Below, in pieces: positions 3,573-33,226 of a DNA stretch of 36,213 nt. Each line of letters starts with the position of its first letter. Within the stretch, counting starts at the first letter, position 1. The notes under the pieces were generated by a model, which was not told the origin of the DNA, ran no database searches, and saw only the letters and a list, made by a program, of their open reading frames with translations. Both the position numbers and the translations under genes were made by a program. The DNA comes from Deltaproteobacteria bacterium (GTDB taxonomy: Bacteria; Desulfobacterota; Deferrimicrobia; Deferrimicrobiales; Deferrimicrobiaceae), in the NCBI GenBank assembly GCA_021824125.1, contig JAKALO010000011.1, forward strand, positions 1 through 36,213. The letters are read 5' to 3'.

Positions 3573-3824
3573 ATGAAGCCCGTATCCCTCCCCCGTCGCA
3601 ATTCCCTGATCGGGTTCATCCCCATCCGAAGCAACAAGGCGCGCAAACCTTCGCTGATCGCCCGCACCGTCGACCGCCTTCGGCGATCGGCTCGGCGGAT
3701 CGGCGTCTGGTCGGAGGGCGTTCATTGGGCGACAGTCGCCGACGCCATCTTCTTCTCGGTTTTCATGCTGTCGCTGTTCGTCCTCTACTGGTGTGCCTAC
3801 CTTATGGGCTGGTGCGGACGATGA
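3573..3824 (+). CDS. Small membrane protein upstream of the transposase
   Basis: An 83-residue protein. ATG 3573 follows a GGAGGAG site. The N-terminal half is strongly basic (RRNSLIGFIPIRSNKARK), and residues about 57-79 form one hydrophobic segment (AIFFSVFMLSLFVLYWCAYLMGW), so it is predicted to sit in the inner membrane with a basic cytoplasmic N-terminus. Its stop overlaps the transposase ATG (ATGA at 3821-3824), implying coupled translation. The family is unknown. Confidence 0.7.
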   Translation: MKPVSLPRRNSLIGFIPIRSNKARKPSLIARTVDRLRRSARRIGVWSEGVHWATVADAIFFSVFMLSLFVLYWCAYLMGWCGR

Positions 3825-6010
3825 CGGATCGGTACTTCTCCGCGCGGGAGCTCGCGGGGCTCCCCGGGATGCCGGAAGATCGAAGCGGAGTTTTTCGGAT
3901 GGCTATCCGCGAATCCTGGCCCTCCCGTCCCCGTCAGGGGCGTGGTGGCGGCCGCGAATACCCCCTCTCCTGCCTTCCGGAGGAGACGCGCAGCGCGATC
4001 CTCGCCCGCCTGGTAGACGCCGCGGCGTCCACGCTGCCCGCGCTGATCCCGGAAGTCGTGCCGCCAGAGAAGTCCGCATCGCAACTTCCCGCCGTGGTCC
4101 CGCCCGGCGTTGTCACGCCCGGAACGCCCATCTTCGTCACGAAGAACGTGCGATTGAAGCTCCCCGCGGCGCCGACGGACGGCTCTCAGGCCCCGGAGAC
4201 CTTGAAAGACTGGCAACGTCGTGCGATGGAAGCCCGCCTGGCGATCCTCGGGCTGGTGGACGAGGTCGCGATGTCGCACGGCATCGATGCGGCGGTCTCT
4301 CACGTCGCCTCGATGGCCGCCCGGTACGAACTTCCTTCGCACATCCAGTCGATGATCCCGTGGGCGAACGCGCGACGCGGGCATGACGATGCACGTACAT
4401 TGTCCTGCCGCACGATTTTCCGGTGGATCTGCGCGCGGGAAGCGGGCAACGTCGCGCTGGCGCCGAGAAGCGCCGGCATGGACTGGATCCCCGCGTGGGC
4501 GCCCACGCTCCTGTCGCTGTTCCAGCGTCCGCAGAAGCCCGCGTTGACCGAGGCGTTGGCGCTGCTGCCGCAAGTCCTGCCCGCGGAGATCACCGCGCCC
4601 TCCTACTGGGCCGTCCGACGGTTCCTGCAACGCATCAACGTCGTGGATCTGCACCGGGGGCGGTTCGGTCCCCGGGAGATCCGCAAGATCCGGATCTTCG
4701 TGCGGCGGGACTTCTCCCAGTTTTTCCCCGGGGACATCTACGAGGCCGATGGCCACACCTTCGACGCCGAAGTGGCGCATCCGTCCCACGGGCGGCCGTT
4801 CCGTCCGGAGTGCGAGCTTGTCCTGGACGTCGTCACGCGGAAGGCGGTCGGCTGGTCGTCGGGGCTGGCCGAATCCACCTGGACGGTCATCGACGCCTTG
4901 CGACACGCCTGCGAGACGAACTGCGTGCCCGCCATGTACTACGTCGACCGGGGCTCCGGCCGCAACAACCACCTCTTAAACGACCTATCCACGGGGTTCA
5001 TCGCGCGTCTGGGGATCACCAAGACGCACAGCATCGCGTACAACTCGCAGGCGCGCGGCGCCGTCGAGCGGGCTCACCAGACGATCTTCATCGGCGTGGC
5101 GAAGACCCTTGCCACCTACATGGGCAAGCCGATGGATCCCGAGGCGAAGAAGAAGGTCTTCACGGCCACGCGGCTGGCCGTCGTCCAAAGGGTTTCCTCG
5201 CCGCTTCTGCCCTCCTGGGCGGAGTTTACAGCCGCCGTCGACGCGGGACTTGCGGCGTACAACGCCCGGCCGCACCGTGCCCTGCCCAAGTTCCGGGATC
5301 CCCAAACGGGGAAGATGCGCCACATGTCGCCCGACGAGCGTTGGGCGCAGTTCGTCGCGGAAGGATTCGAGCCGATCCGGATCACCCCGGAGGAGTCGAT
5401 CGACCTGTTCCGGCCGTACGAAGTCCGGATCTGCCAGCGCGGCGAGGTCAACCTGAAAAAAAACCGCTACTTCCACAAGGCCCTCGAGGGGTACCACGGG
5501 CAGCATGTCCGGGTGGGATACGACATGCACGACGCATCGCGCGTCTGGGTGCGGGATCTCGACGGCCGCCTGATCTGCGTGGCCGGCTTCGAGGCCAACA
5601 GCCGGGCCTTCTATCCCGTATCCGTGGTCGTACAGAAGCGCCTGGAGCGCGCCAAAGGACGGGAGCAGCGTCTGGAGGCCCACCTCGAAGAGGTCCGCGA
5701 GGAGCTTACGGGGGCAACGAATACGGTCGACGCGGACTTCTCCGACGACCTCACCCCCGAGGAGAAGGCGCGCGCGGACGAGCAGATCAAGGCCCTTGCG
5801 GCCCCTCGCGACGACGACGAGGTGGACGTGGCCGACGACGTCAAGTTCTGGCGATGGGGGATCGCGCACATGGACGAGCTCTCCGAGGACCAGAAGCGCT
5901 ACCTGGCCGAGCGCCTCGATCGCTCCCCCACGTTCCGGGAGCTGCTCGGCCTGGTGGACGAAGACACGGGTTTTAGCCAGCCGTCGGGACTGAGCGTCCC
6001 GGCGGTGTGA
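3821..6010 (+). CDS. A: Mu-type DDE transposase (A)
   Basis: A 729-residue transposase that cuts the prophage ends and joins them to target DNA during integration and replicative transposition. The N-terminus (MTDRYFSARELAGLPGMPE...REYPLSCLPEETR) is the Mu-type end-binding winged helix. The integrase-fold core carries the DDE triad at Asp310 (EADGHTFD), Asp376 (YVDRGSG) and Glu416 (GAVERAH). The Mu-transposase C-terminal region follows, and the last 130 residues are charged and probably contact the B ATPase. ATG 3821 overlaps the previous stop, and it fits the conserved N-terminus, so longer frames upstream are not used. Length is close to MuA (663). It looks intact. Confidence 0.95.
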   Translation: MTDRYFSARELAGLPGMPEDRSGVFRMAIRESWPSRPRQGRGGGREYPLSCLPEETRSAILARLVDAAASTLPALIPEVVPPEKSASQLPAVVPPGVVTPGTPIFVTKNVRLKLPAAPTDGSQAPETLKDWQRRAMEARLAILGLVDEVAMSHGIDAAVSHVASMAARYELPSHIQSMIPWANARRGHDDARTLSCRTIFRWICAREAGNVALAPRSAGMDWIPAWAPTLLSLFQRPQKPALTEALALLPQVLPAEITAPSYWAVRRFLQRINVVDLHRGRFGPREIRKIRIFVRRDFSQFFPGDIYEADGHTFDAEVAHPSHGRPFRPECELVLDVVTRKAVGWSSGLAESTWTVIDALRHACETNCVPAMYYVDRGSGRNNHLLNDLSTGFIARLGITKTHSIAYNSQARGAVERAHQTIFIGVAKTLATYMGKPMDPEAKKKVFTATRLAVVQRVSSPLLPSWAEFTAAVDAGLAAYNARPHRALPKFRDPQTGKMRHMSPDERWAQFVAEGFEPIRITPEESIDLFRPYEVRICQRGEVNLKKNRYFHKALEGYHGQHVRVGYDMHDASRVWVRDLDGRLICVAGFEANSRAFYPVSVVVQKRLERAKGREQRLEAHLEEVREELTGATNTVDADFSDDLTPEEKARADEQIKALAAPRDDDEVDVADDVKFWRWGIAHMDELSEDQKRYLAERLDRSPTFRELLGLVDEDTGFSQPSGLSVPAV

Positions 6011-24321: not shown

Positions 24322-25245
24322 ATGCTGGTACGCAAACGCACGCTGCTTGGAAAGATCGAAGCCACCTACGGGGTCGATCCGGTGCCGGTCCCGGCCACCG
24401 ACGCGATTCTCGAGAAGAATCTCGACGTCCGGGAGATCGGCGAGGAGCTCGTCCGGGACTTCGCCCGGTCTTCCCTGTCTCCCCTGCCGCATGTGATCGG
24501 GGAGAAATACGCCGAGCTCAAGTTCCAGACGGAACTGAAAGGCTCCGGCGCGGCCGGCACAGCTCCGGAGATCGGCAAGCTCTTCAGGGCGTGCGGGTTC
24601 GCGGAGACGATCGTTGCCCTCACCTCGGCGGCGTACGATCCGTCGTCCGCATCGTTCTCCTCGATCACCTTCTACGTCTACCGTGACGGGATCCTCCACA
24701 AGCTGACCGGCGCGCGGGGGACGTTCGACGTCGATCTCACCGTCGGAAAATACGGCGTCATCAACTGGACCTTCCAGGGTCTCTACGTCGCCGTCTCCGA
24801 TTCGGCGCTCGTCTCCGGGACGTACAACGCAACGCTGCCGCCGGTGGTCCTGAACGCGGCGTTCTCCGCCGGAGGGTACGCCGCGGTAGCGACGAAGGTG
24901 TCGCTGAACATGGCGAACGAACTCGCCCTCCGGCGGGATTTGAGCGCGGCGAACGGAATCCGGGAGGTCCTGATCACCGGCTGGGACGGCCGGGGCGGAT
25001 CCTTCGATCCCGAGGCGGTCCTCGAGGCGACGCATCCGTTCTTCGCCAACTGGGCGTCGGCGGCCCAGGCGGCGCTTACCGTCACGGTGGGCGGCACGGC
25101 CGGGAACAGGTGCGTCATCACGGCGCCGAAGGCCCAGTACAAGTCGATCTCCCCGGGCGACCGGGACAAGATCTACGTCTACGACATCCCGATCCGCCTG
25201 GCGCAGTCCGTGGGGGACGACGAGGTGAAGCTCCTGTTCAACTGA
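24322..25245 (+). CDS. Major tail tube protein
   Basis: A 307-residue protein after GGGAGGAG. The opening RKRTLLGKIEATYGVDPVPVPATDAILEKNLDV is typical of siphovirus tail tube proteins, followed by beta-rich tube domains and possible Ig-like decoration (residues about 120-200). It precedes the chaperone pair and the tape measure in standard siphovirus order. No sheath gene is found before it, which argues for a non-contractile tail. Confidence 0.82.
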   Translation: MLVRKRTLLGKIEATYGVDPVPVPATDAILEKNLDVREIGEELVRDFARSSLSPLPHVIGEKYAELKFQTELKGSGAAGTAPEIGKLFRACGFAETIVALTSAAYDPSSASFSSITFYVYRDGILHKLTGARGTFDVDLTVGKYGVINWTFQGLYVAVSDSALVSGTYNATLPPVVLNAAFSAGGYAAVATKVSLNMANELALRRDLSAANGIREVLITGWDGRGGSFDPEAVLEATHPFFANWASAAQAALTVTVGGTAGNRCVITAPKAQYKSISPGDRDKIYVYDIPIRLAQSVGDDEVKLLFN

Positions 25246-25312: not shown

Positions 25313-25364
25313 CCCCCTTTCGATTGCCAGGAGACGGATCACGCCGAAAAAGGAGACGACGAGA

Positions 25365-25748
25365 ATGCCGATCGCGGTTGATCCGAACAAAAGTTGGGAA
25401 TACACCCTCGAATGTGATCGGGAGCTTCCTCCGGAACAGCAGACGGTCTTCGAGCTGAAGGTCCTCTCGGCCCGGGACCTGGCGGCGATCCAGGACGGCG
25501 CGACGAAGGGAAACGTCGACGGCTCCCTTGAGTTCAAGTCCGGCTCGCAGACCCTCCGCATCCTGGACCTGGGCGTGCGCGGGTGGAGGAATTTTAAGGA
25601 TGCCGACGGCGCCGATGTCCCCTACCGGGAGAACAACGGCAAGCCGCGGCCCGAGAATTGGGACTGCTTGCGGCCGGAGTGGCGCAGGGAGCTGGCCAAC
25701 GCCATCACCGAACAAAACCGCCTCTCGGAGGAGGAAAGAAAAAACTGA
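25365..25748 (+). CDS. Tail assembly chaperone, short form (G-like)
   Basis: A 127-residue protein between the tube and tape measure genes, ATG 25365 after AAGGAG. Its position and the frameshift signal at its end identify it as the lambda G-type chaperone that coats the tape measure during tail assembly. It opens with beta-like sequence (SWEYTLECDRELPPEQQTVFELKVLSARDLA), as tail chaperones often do. It ends EEERKN just at the slippery site. Confidence 0.82.
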   Translation: MPIAVDPNKSWEYTLECDRELPPEQQTVFELKVLSARDLAAIQDGATKGNVDGSLEFKSGSQTLRILDLGVRGWRNFKDADGADVPYRENNGKPRPENWDCLRPEWRRELANAITEQNRLSEEERKN

Positions 25749-25778
25749 TCGTGCTCGCGGCGTTCCTCGCCGGCGAGC
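25739..25778 (+). promoter_or_regulatory. Programmed -1 frameshift site with stem-loop
   Basis: The heptamer A AAA AAC (25739-25745) is in the correct register, and the zero-frame stop TGA (25746-25748) follows at once. Seven bases after the heptamer a stem begins: GCTCGC (25753-25758) with GCGAGC (25773-25778), continued by GGCG (25759-25762) with CGCC (25768-25771), one bulged G at 25772 and a TTCCT loop. A GGAGG at about 25729-25733, upstream of the heptamer, could act as a stimulating Shine-Dalgarno. All standard elements of bacterial -1 frameshifting are present. Confidence 0.88.
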
Positions 25779-26065
25779 TGGAGGAATATGACTGCAAGAC
25801 GTGCGCGGACGAGCTTCAACCGATGCGGGGATGCACGGAAGACGCCCTCCGGCCGGTGCTCGTCTTCGAGGACAAGACGGAGCTTACCCGGTGTCCTGTG
25901 CGATCCATCACCCCGGATCTGTGGCACGTCGCCCGGGCGTATCGCTACAAGGAGGCCGGCTTGTTCCCCGCGTCGGGCGGTTGGCTGGAGCAGAGCGCGA
26001 CGCTGCTCGAGGCGTTCGACCTGCTCGACCGGGAGATCGCCTCGTACGCCCCGAAGAAACGCTGA
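25745..26065 (+). CDS. Tail chaperone frameshift extension (T of G-T)
   Basis: The -1 frame continues from the slippery site for 106 codons (LIVLAAFLAGELEEYDCKTCADELQPM...). The expected fusion, join(25365..25745,25745..26065), is 233 residues. The T part contains cysteines CKTC, C and C, and contacts the tube subunit in lambda. A separate start at GTG 25751 is possible but less likely given the frameshift signals. The fused form is needed at a low ratio to the short form. Confidence 0.82.
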   Translation: MIVLAAFLAGELEEYDCKTCADELQPMRGCTEDALRPVLVFEDKTELTRCPVRSITPDLWHVARAYRYKEAGLFPASGGWLEQSATLLEAFDLLDREIASYAPKKR

Positions 26066-26093: not shown

Positions 26094-28817
26094 ATGGGCA
26101 AAAACGACGAACTGAAGATCGTCATCCGGGCGCAGGACTTCGCCACCGGCGAGTTGAACAAGATCAACGGGGCGTTTTCCGCGTTCACCGGCAAACTCAC
26201 GTCGGGATTCAACGCCCTGAAAACACATTGGGTCGCCGCCGCGGCCGCGTTCTACGCCGTCATGAGGACTCTCTCCACCGGCTGGGATCTCTTCGAAAAA
26301 GGAGCCGGAAGGAAGGATCAGATCGAGGCGCTCGATCGCTTGGTGGCGAAGTACAACACGTCCGCCACCGAGATCTTATCGGCGATCAAGAGATCCTCCC
26401 ACGGGCTGATCGATACGAAGACGGCGCTGGATTCCATCGGCGACGCCGTCATGCGGAACCTTGATCCGCGGATCCTCGAGAAGTTCGCCGCCGGTGCCGT
26501 CGTCATGGCGAAGGCGACCGGTGGATCCACCGCGGCGGCATACGCCGAGATCATCGAAGCCGTCTCTACCGGGCAGGCAAGGGCGCTGAAGAAAATCACC
26601 GGTGTGATGGATATGAAGGAGAAATACGGCGAGGGGTTCATGTCGTTTTCCGAAGGCCAGCAGGCGGCGCTGCGGATGCAGTTGGTGCTGGAGAAGTTGA
26701 CGGAGCGCCAACGGGAATACGGCGTGGTGATCGTCGAGTCGGACGACAAGATCGTCCAGTTCAAGAACACCATCGAGGATTTAAAAACCGCAGTTGGCAT
26801 GGGGTTGGAAACTCTCTTTGGAGCTTCGTTCGGGGACTTCAAAAAGGGGATCGACGACGCGGTGAAAAGCGTGCAGGCGTTCGTGAAGGAAAACAACGGG
26901 CTTTTTGAGGGGATTGCGGGGGTCTTGAAAACCATAGGCGGGAGCCTCGGGAGCATCCTGGGGAACATCTGGCAAATGATAAAGGACTCCGGAGCGCTGC
27001 AATTGGTTTGGCTCGGAGTCTCGGCCGCATTGAAAGTCGTGAATCTTGCACTCGGAGCGATGGCCGATATTATCAACGGATTGAAGAAGGGTACGTACGC
27101 GGTAGGAGCCCTTCTCATGGAATTCGGGGCGGATTTCTTCGATTACATATCCAATTCCGGAGCGGCGCTCGAGGGGTACGACGGCCACGTCAATGTCATT
27201 TCCAACAGTTTGAGGAAGCAACAGAAAATACTTGAGGACAAACTGAAGGCGGGCGACAAAGACAAATCGTATCTTTTGGAAGCGATCGAGAAGAACAAAG
27301 CCCTCCTGAAGATCCAGCAGGAAGGGGTCAAAGCCGCGAAGGAGGCGAAGAAGGCGGCGGGGACGTTTATCCCTCCTCCGACAACGGGGTTCTCCGAAGC
27401 GCAGAAGAAATCCGTCGAGGATTTCCTGTCCTGGTACAAGACGCAGTCCGCCCAGGTCGCCGGCGAGATCAAGGCGCTTCATGGAGACGAAGCGGGAGCG
27501 CTGAAGGATCAGTACGAGCAGTCGTTGGAAGAGATTGCGGCGAAGGCGCGGGAACTGAAAAAGAACAACTTGCTCGTGGAGAAGGACGGCACCTTCACGA
27601 TCGCCCCGATGCTGAACGACGAAGGCCGCGCGAAGGCGGCCGAAGCGCTCAAGGCGTACAACGACCTGCGGGAAAAATACACCACGCTGTTCCACGACAA
27701 GGAAATCCTCCTGCAGGTGCAGACGGACGCCAGGATCGCGGAGCTCTCCATCTACGACTATGAGGCGATCCACAAGACGAAGTTGGAGTTGCTTAAAAAA
27801 CAACTGAGTGAAAATCCCGCGCTCCTCCAGGCGGCGCTGGCCAACGAGAATCTACTCTACGACGGTGCGAACCGGGAACGGGTGAACGAAGCCCGGAAAA
27901 TGTACGAGGACATGGCCGGCCTCTGGCTCGAAGGGTCGCAAAAGACGATCGCGGATCTCAAATCCGCCTACCAGGATGACCTGGCGGCGTTCCGGGAGAA
28001 GGTCTACCAGAAGAAAGCCACCTGGGAAGAGTACGACGCCTACGTCCGGGGCAGGGAACACCGGCTGCAGGAGGATCTGAAGAAGATCCAGGGCACCTCC
28101 ACCGACGGCATGAAGGACGCCGTGCGGGATTACATCGACGCGTCCGGCAACGAATACAACCGCGGGAAGGATTTCTTCGATAAGTCGGTCGGCGGGATGG
28201 AGAGCGCGATCGGCGACTTCCTGTACGCCGCGTCCCAGGGGACCTTCAAAGTCCGCGAGATGTTCCAGTCGATGGGGCTGTCGATCCTCAAAGCCGCTTC
28301 GGAGATCATCGCCAAGATGATCGCGCTAAAAATCGTCGCGGGGATCGGTTCGATCTTCTCCCCGTCCTCCACTCCATCGGCGGGCAGTGGATGGGCGATC
28401 GGCGGTGATTCACCGGCGACGTTTTCCGGCGCCGGTGTTGGGTTCACGACGGCATTAGGAGGTATTTATCGCGGAGGTTGGCAGCCGGCCTTTGCATTCC
28501 CCGGTGGAGGGTCGATGCCGTTTAGGGCGTTCTCCTCCGGCGGCATCGTAAAGCGTCCGACCGTCGGGCTGGTCGGTGAAGGCGGGCAGAACGAGGCCGT
28601 CGTTCCCCTTCCGGACGGGAAAGCGATCCCGGTGAAGATGCAGGGGGGCGACGGGGAAAAGACGATCATCGTCCAGAACGAGTGGACCATCAACACGCTC
28701 GATGCGAACGGATTCGACCAGCTCCTCTCCAGCCGGAAATCGACGATCGACGGGATGATGGCGGACTCGCTCGCCCGGGCCGGCCTGGTGCGCGACGCCA
28801 TGAGGAGGTACCGGTAG
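26094..28817 (+). CDS. Tail tape measure protein
   Basis: A 907-residue protein setting tail length. At about 1.5 angstrom per residue it predicts a tail near 135 nm. It follows the chaperone pair. Hydrophobic stretches lie at about residues 45-60 and 270-350 (IAGVLKTIGGSLGSILGNIWQMIKDSG and on), followed by coiled-coil helices and a lambda-H-like C-terminus (MFQSMGLSILKAASEIIAKMIALKIVAGIGSIF...PAFAFPGGGSMPFRAFSSGGIVKRPTVGLVGEGG). Bases about 26760-27320 look more AT-rich than the rest, suggesting a recombined middle module. ATG 26094 has a weak ribosome site. Confidence 0.92.
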   Translation: MGKNDELKIVIRAQDFATGELNKINGAFSAFTGKLTSGFNALKTHWVAAAAAFYAVMRTLSTGWDLFEKGAGRKDQIEALDRLVAKYNTSATEILSAIKRSSHGLIDTKTALDSIGDAVMRNLDPRILEKFAAGAVVMAKATGGSTAAAYAEIIEAVSTGQARALKKITGVMDMKEKYGEGFMSFSEGQQAALRMQLVLEKLTERQREYGVVIVESDDKIVQFKNTIEDLKTAVGMGLETLFGASFGDFKKGIDDAVKSVQAFVKENNGLFEGIAGVLKTIGGSLGSILGNIWQMIKDSGALQLVWLGVSAALKVVNLALGAMADIINGLKKGTYAVGALLMEFGADFFDYISNSGAALEGYDGHVNVISNSLRKQQKILEDKLKAGDKDKSYLLEAIEKNKALLKIQQEGVKAAKEAKKAAGTFIPPPTTGFSEAQKKSVEDFLSWYKTQSAQVAGEIKALHGDEAGALKDQYEQSLEEIAAKARELKKNNLLVEKDGTFTIAPMLNDEGRAKAAEALKAYNDLREKYTTLFHDKEILLQVQTDARIAELSIYDYEAIHKTKLELLKKQLSENPALLQAALANENLLYDGANRERVNEARKMYEDMAGLWLEGSQKTIADLKSAYQDDLAAFREKVYQKKATWEEYDAYVRGREHRLQEDLKKIQGTSTDGMKDAVRDYIDASGNEYNRGKDFFDKSVGGMESAIGDFLYAASQGTFKVREMFQSMGLSILKAASEIIAKMIALKIVAGIGSIFSPSSTPSAGSGWAIGGDSPATFSGAGVGFTTALGGIYRGGWQPAFAFPGGGSMPFRAFSSGGIVKRPTVGLVGEGGQNEAVVPLPDGKAIPVKMQGGDGEKTIIVQNEWTINTLDANGFDQLLSSRKSTIDGMMADSLARAGLVRDAMRRYR

Positions 28818-32530: not shown

Positions 32531-33226
32531 ATGACGATCACCATCGACCCGGCCTCTCAGGCCCAGGCGCAGGCCGCGTTCACGCGATCGGCGCTCCTGT
32601 TCGAGTTCTATCTGACTGCCGGCACGCAGTTCTTTACGACCTGCGACCGGCCCCTGCTGTATGCTGCGAACACCTACGAGCCCTTCCCGATCCAGATCGG
32701 CGAGATCAAGAAATCCTCCATGGGGCTGACCGACGACGTGACCGTCGTCCTGTCGAACGTCAGCAGGGACATCGCCGCTCTCCTTCTTTCCGAGACGTTC
32801 CGTGGGAAGCGTGCGGTGATCCGCCGCGTCTTCCTGTCGGACGCCTACACGATCACCGTCCCCTTCGTCGTATTCGACGGCCTGGTGGACGAGGTGACCG
32901 GCAAGGAGGAAAAGGACTCCTCGGTCATCGTGGCGACGCTCACGACCGACCTCGCGTACTGGCAGAAGTCGCTCCCGGGTCGGCAGTACCAGGCGACCTG
33001 CCAGTGGGCGTTCAAGTCCACGGGTTGCGGATACGCCGGCGCGGAGACGTGGTGCAACCGGACATGGGAGCGGTGCAAGGCCCTGCTGAATCAGACCCGC
33101 TACTCAGGGTTCCGGCATCTTCCGAAGCTGGAGTCGATGCCCGTCTGGTGGGGAAAGGCGAACCCAACTTCTTCATCCTCGACGGCTCACGTCCCCATCG
33201 GGACGTGGCCCGGGAACATGAGGTAG
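32531..33226 (+). CDS. Tail tip protein L-like (DUF2163)
   Basis: A 231-residue protein. The N-terminal pattern ALLFEFYLTAGTQFFTTCDRPLLYAANTYEPFPI is that of DUF2163/lambda L-type tip proteins. The C-terminal cluster Cys157, Cys166, Cys175 and Cys182 (CQWAFKSTGCGYAGAETWCNRTWERC) matches the four cysteines that hold an iron-sulfur cluster in lambda gpL. It sits before K- and J-like genes as in lambda. ATG 32531 has a GGAG site. Confidence 0.87.
   Translation: MTITIDPASQAQAQAAFTRSALLFEFYLTAGTQFFTTCDRPLLYAANTYEPFPIQIGEIKKSSMGLTDDVTVVLSNVSRDIAALLLSETFRGKRAVIRRVFLSDAYTITVPFVVFDGLVDEVTGKEEKDSSVIVATLTTDLAYWQKSLPGRQYQATCQWAFKSTGCGYAGAETWCNRTWERCKALLNQTRYSGFRHLPKLESMPVWWGKANPTSSSSTAHVPIGTWPGNMR

Follow-up and report, generated by a model that had tools for sequence, protein, structure and literature searches.

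The window analysed here, a stretch of 36,213 nucleotides from contig JAKALO010000011.1 (assembly GCA_021824125.1), contains a phage with a Mu-type transposase whose nearest counterparts among named phages are found in Pseudomonas phage MP22 and its relatives (about 40% identity), and the element is a Mu-like prophage. Between its tail tube gene (Pfam PF18906) and its tape measure gene (phrog_1716, Pfam PF09718) sit two ORFs that resemble in arrangement the G and T tail assembly chaperone genes of phage lambda, and which are referred to here as G-like and T-like (Table 1). The G-like ORF is preceded by a Shine-Dalgarno-like AAGGAG at positions 25350-25355, and at its 3' end the zero frame reads ..AGA AAA AAC TGA, i.e. 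the heptamer lies in the X XXY YYZ phase that a -1 slip requires. The -1 frame reads AAA AAA CTG ATC from the same point and runs to a TGA at 26063-26065, which would give a fusion protein of about 233 aa. A preliminary description of this DNA had pointed out the in-frame A AAA AAC followed at once by TGA, a GGAGG just upstream (here part of GGAGGAGG), a -1 frame that continues for 106 codons, and a position between the tube and tape measure genes; each of these elements is present.

Table 1. Features of the putative tail chaperone frameshift locus and its neighbours (positions in the window)
Feature	Position	Strand	Basis or remark
Tail tube gene, upstream neighbour	24322..25245	+	Pfam PF18906 Phage_tube_2, E 9.5e-16
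Zero-frame G-like tail assembly chaperone ORF, 127 aa	25365..25748	+	Open frame, ATG 25365 to TGA 25746-25748
GGAGGAGG, Shine-Dalgarno-like, possible stimulator	25727..25734	+	Sequence; not uniformly conserved
Slippery heptamer A AAA AAC	25739..25745	+	In phase; equivalent in 24/24 distinct junctions
-1 frame T-like extension, 106 codons past the heptamer	25739..26065	+	Conserved protein in relatives; dN/dS 0.23-0.31
Zero-frame stop TGA	25746..25748	+	Sequence; directly 3' of the heptamer
GTG, possible alternative start in the -1 frame, not conserved	25751..25753	+	Present in window, C32, L008; not in L006, L007
Predicted bulged 10-bp hairpin	25753..25778	+	RNA fold; shape common to window and L008 only
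Four conserved Cys codons	25793-25795, 25802-25804, 25832-25834, 25892-25894 (span 25793..25894)	+	CxxC...C...C, in 19/24 T-like domains
Tape measure gene, downstream neighbour	26094..28817	+	phrog_1716, E 4.7e-17; Pfam PF09718

Close relatives of the locus

Another contig of the same genome, C32 (loci L005, L038 and L039), carries a second, related prophage of the transposable type, which is up to 84% identical to that of the window in places and possesses the same candidate frameshift site. Outside the window's own genome, no homologs of the G-like protein were found in 59 relatives and 395 genomes of the phylum. The segment GGAAAGAAAAAAC is letter-for-letter identical in the C32 prophage and in three IMG/VR loci (L006, L007 and L008), and compared with the window the G-like proteins of these four relatives are 66-85% identical and their T-like proteins 49-88% identical. 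In L006 and L007 the zero-frame stop lies one codon later and the GTG found at position 25751 of the window is missing, while the heptamer is unchanged; it is therefore the heptamer that has been kept, and not the immediate stop or the possible start codon.

Distribution of the heptamer among related junctions

Profile searches yielded 18 IMG/VR loci, 13 of which contributed distinct junctions to the analysis (the count excludes L012, L015, L017 and L018, each of which repeats a neighbour), and nine named phages, chosen by a homologous tube gene, were added. An in-phase heptamer is present in all 24 distinct junctions (AAAAAAC in 15, GGGAAAC in six and AAAAAAA in three), a count that is to be read as descriptive and not as a series of independent trials, because the loci are related, the G-like protein served in part to select them, and each site was found through a search for such a heptamer. 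The end of the heptamer is separated from the zero-frame stop by 0-27 nt. The yardstick for such counts is provided by the remaining ORFs of the same loci that are 100 aa or longer: three out of 243 have an in-phase heptamer no more than 27 nt from their stop, as against 24 of 24 junctions. Taken by itself, the string AAAAAAC says little, since the window contains nine copies of it versus 2.0 expected; for the peptide R-K-N, the codon usage of the phage would give AGA AAA AAC with a probability of 0.005. The open -1 frame, too, is weak evidence when taken alone, the DNA being GC-rich: a frame open for 108 codons also appears in 4% of shuffles.

Analysis of the second slip codon reveals that it is AAC or AAA in all 24 junctions (e.g. 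positions 25743-25745 of the window) and never AAG. The single tRNA-Lys found in the host genome has the anticodon UUU, as in E. coli, so that a different set of lysine tRNAs does not explain the use of AAC in place of AAG.

The T-like -1 ORF exhibits a dN/dS of 0.23-0.31, indicative of purifying selection, and the G-like half is under purifying selection as well. In eight of the 24 junctions, no ATG, GTG or TTG is found in the open stretch of the -1 frame ahead of the conserved domain, and there the full domain could not be made by ordinary initiation. In one related locus at 4001-4420 of L019, a 97-kb IMG/VR contig, neither a heptamer nor a -1 extension was detected with the G-like ORF. Downstream of this ORF lies a second stretch similar to the G-like motif.

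RNA structure and the upstream Shine-Dalgarno-like sequence

A bulged, GC-rich stem had been proposed to begin 7 bases downstream of the heptamer, and a hairpin is indeed predicted there, with 25753-25762 paired to 25768-25778, a single bulged base at 25772, a spacer of 7 nt and a folding energy of -18.5 kcal/mol. Judged against shuffled sequences, the hairpin of the window alone is predicted to be only modestly better than expected (z of -2.0 in a tight window and about -1.4 in wider ones). The exact hairpin is shared with L008 only; for C32, L006 and L007 a different, longer-range stem is predicted that uses the same CTCGCGG 5' arm, and covariation, judged by pair counts over the five close sequences, lends support to neither candidate stem. 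Over the 60 nt downstream of the 24 junctions, the mean z is -1.57 versus -0.19 in control windows from the same genes (Wilcoxon p 4e-6, for loci that are related and non-independent). Because predicted folding is enriched over the 24 junctions but the hairpin of the window recurs only in L008, a folded RNA downstream appears to be a general feature of these junctions without one conserved shape. Thus, of the two elements that the preliminary description had suggested comparing in related phages, the heptamer or an equivalent is retained in all 24 distinct junctions, but the shape of the stem is not. No Rfam match was obtained at the site.

The Shine-Dalgarno-like element of the GGAGGAGG type is strong in four of the five close relatives and weak in many of the other loci. 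In the window, GGAGG is separated from the heptamer by 4 nt, which is shorter than the spacing of roughly 10 nt in E. coli dnaX.

Sequence and fold analysis of the two proteins

Homologs of the G-like protein share a GLRGWRNFKD motif, found at the same position in the relatives. Searches of Pfam and PHROGs gave no match for either the G-like or the T-like protein of the window, and with aligned members the hits were at the level of chance, the best of them being a weak one to phrog_313 "Tail assembly chaperone" (E 0.054). For an AlphaFold2 model of the G part (pLDDT 79), the first-ranked PDB match is the tail assembly chaperone of HK97 (2ob9), again a weak one (E 0.24, TM 0.37-0.42), and for a model of the T part (pLDDT 86) fold searches found no significant match.

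The T part contains a CxxC...C...C pattern in 19 of the 24 junctions; this motif is absent from the T parts of S-CBS1, RC1, S-LBS1, S-CBS3 and L016. Those of S-CBS1 and RC1 match DUF1799 (Pfam PF08809), a family for which no match was found in the T-like protein of the window or in its aligned members. Judging from the sequence pattern, the four cysteines possibly bind zinc. We suggest, as a tentative proposal that is open to considerable doubt, that the T-like extension may represent an undescribed class of Cys4 zinc-ribbon-like, metal-binding tail-tube recruiters, which would occur in phages of Rhizobium, Agrobacterium, Rhodobacter, Alteromonas and uncultured hosts and would in every case be added on through -1 slippage at X XXA AAC or A AAA AAA.

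Interpretation of the junction and alternative explanations

The comparison with related loci makes programmed -1 frameshifting by the ribosome very likely, and the site very probably works in the same manner as that of lambda G/G-T. The same reading had been offered in the preliminary description, and it is strengthened by the gene order, the phase of the heptamer, its retention amid changing surroundings, the purifying selection on the -1 frame, the enriched folding downstream and the eight relatives devoid of a start codon. According to this model, the majority of ribosomes would produce the 127-aa G-like chaperone and terminate at TGA 25746, while a minority would slip back by one base at A AAA AAC, aided by RNA structure just downstream and perhaps also by the Shine-Dalgarno-like sequence upstream, and would synthesize the fusion of about 233 aa, whose added domain bears the four conserved cysteines. 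If the two forms act as in lambda, the partner of the short one would be the tape measure protein, and the rare long one would recruit tail-tube subunits. Slippage itself, its rate and the roles of the proteins are what we infer from these comparisons. Several observations count against the frameshift reading: neither protein matches a known chaperone family, the shape of the hairpin in the window is not conserved, L019 has no heptamer or extension, and E. coli has better slip sites than A_AAA_AAC, which is less shift-prone there than A_AAA_AAG (PMC5009743). The term "textbook", applied to the site earlier, passes over this last point.

The -1 ORF might instead be a gene in its own right, with ribosomes re-initiating at GTG 25751 once they have terminated at TGA 25746. 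Such a scenario is consistent with the location of the GTG two bases past the stop in the window, C32 and L008, with the presence of GGAGGAGG upstream, and with the occurrence in some relatives of an ATG soon after the heptamer (e.g. at +21 in Rhodobacter phage RcZahn). However, L006 and L007 lack the GTG while their heptamer is unchanged, eight of the 24 junctions offer no ATG, GTG or TTG in the -1 frame ahead of the conserved domain, and GGAGG and the GTG are 16 nt apart, a long distance for initiation, all of which leaves re-initiation improbable. Translation from GTG 25751 only, which the preliminary description had named as the finding that would speak against a frameshift, is likewise disfavoured by the absence of this codon from L006 and L007, where the heptamer stays.

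Two further explanations start from the run of six A in the window. It could in principle provoke slippage of RNA polymerase, so that the frame would be changed in the transcript and not by the ribosome; yet six A are short for polymerase slippage, the heptamer GGGAAAC of six junctions contains no such run, and both the reading-frame phase and the downstream structure fit ribosomal slippage, and we consider a transcriptional origin of the frame change very improbable. Homopolymers are also prone to sequencing error and the window comes from an assembly of 246 contigs, which might suggest that the A run was misassembled or that a single gene has been disrupted to give the two ORFs. Hardly any credence can be given to this idea, as 24 junctions, drawn from numerous different records, show the same frame relation at varying distances to the stop, and purifying selection acts on both halves.

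Relationship to known tail chaperone frameshifts

In phage lambda, low-level -1 frameshifting gives rise to G and G-T, the partner of G being the tape measure protein and that of T the tube protein, and the conservation of such frameshifts in tail chaperone genes extends widely across the long-tailed phages, even though the sequences show little similarity (PMC5009743). The window shares with lambda the order tube - G - T - tape measure, an in-phase heptamer near the end of G, a -1 extension and a downstream RNA structure as a plausible stimulator, and differs from it in that its proteins lack detectable similarity to known families and its T part possesses the Cys4 motif. The heptamer is G GGA AAG in lambda and A AAA AAC in the window. 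Chaperones of the G/G-T type are absent from the virion. Slip sites of the same kind as that of the window, G_GGA_AAC and A_AAA_AAC, have been reported for g-t of HCTV-1 and HCTV-2, which are haloarchaeal viruses and thus have archaeal hosts (PMC5009743). In the Mu-like Pseudomonas siphophage PaMx73 a putative -1 tail chaperone site, T TTT TTC, has been described 43 codons before the stop (PMC4378225); PaMx73 is a transposable siphophage of the D3112 group, i.e. of the group with transposases nearest to that of the window. Synechococcus phage S-CBS1 and Rhodobacter phage RC1 agree with the window in the location of the site, the kind of heptamer and a homologous tube protein, but differ in the T part, which in them is DUF1799 without the Cys4 motif. 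The junctions described here would add to the known G/G-T class a divergent chaperone family that is absent from Pfam and PHROGs, and offer a Cys-rich T domain for which metal binding and tube binding are testable.

Other candidate slip sites in the window

Two additional heptamers in the window were considered and taken as chance occurrences. GGGAAAG at 33151-33157, in phase with the hub gene (32531-33226) and 25 codons upstream of the stop, could have suggested a hub-to-peptidase frameshift into a -1 ORF; it was rejected because the C32 prophage conserves that frame only from GTG 33229 on. The other, AAAAAAC at 5458, lies in frame within the transposase gene, 184 codons away from the stop in GC-rich DNA.

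Unannotated junctions in named phages

The records of all nine named phages carry no annotation of a frameshift or a joined gene at this site, and our analysis points out phages among them in which a putative frameshift has gone unannotated. This bears on the published remark on RcZahn, according to which there is no clear evidence of a frameshift (PMC8601537). In the RcZahn genome (L035), an in-phase AAAAAAC is located at 4540-4546, at the end of gp27, and the 139-codon -1 frame corresponds to gp28. Alteromonas phage P24 (L033) contains at 3763-4071 an unannotated T-like Cys4 ORF, 103 codons long, whose frame offers no start codon.
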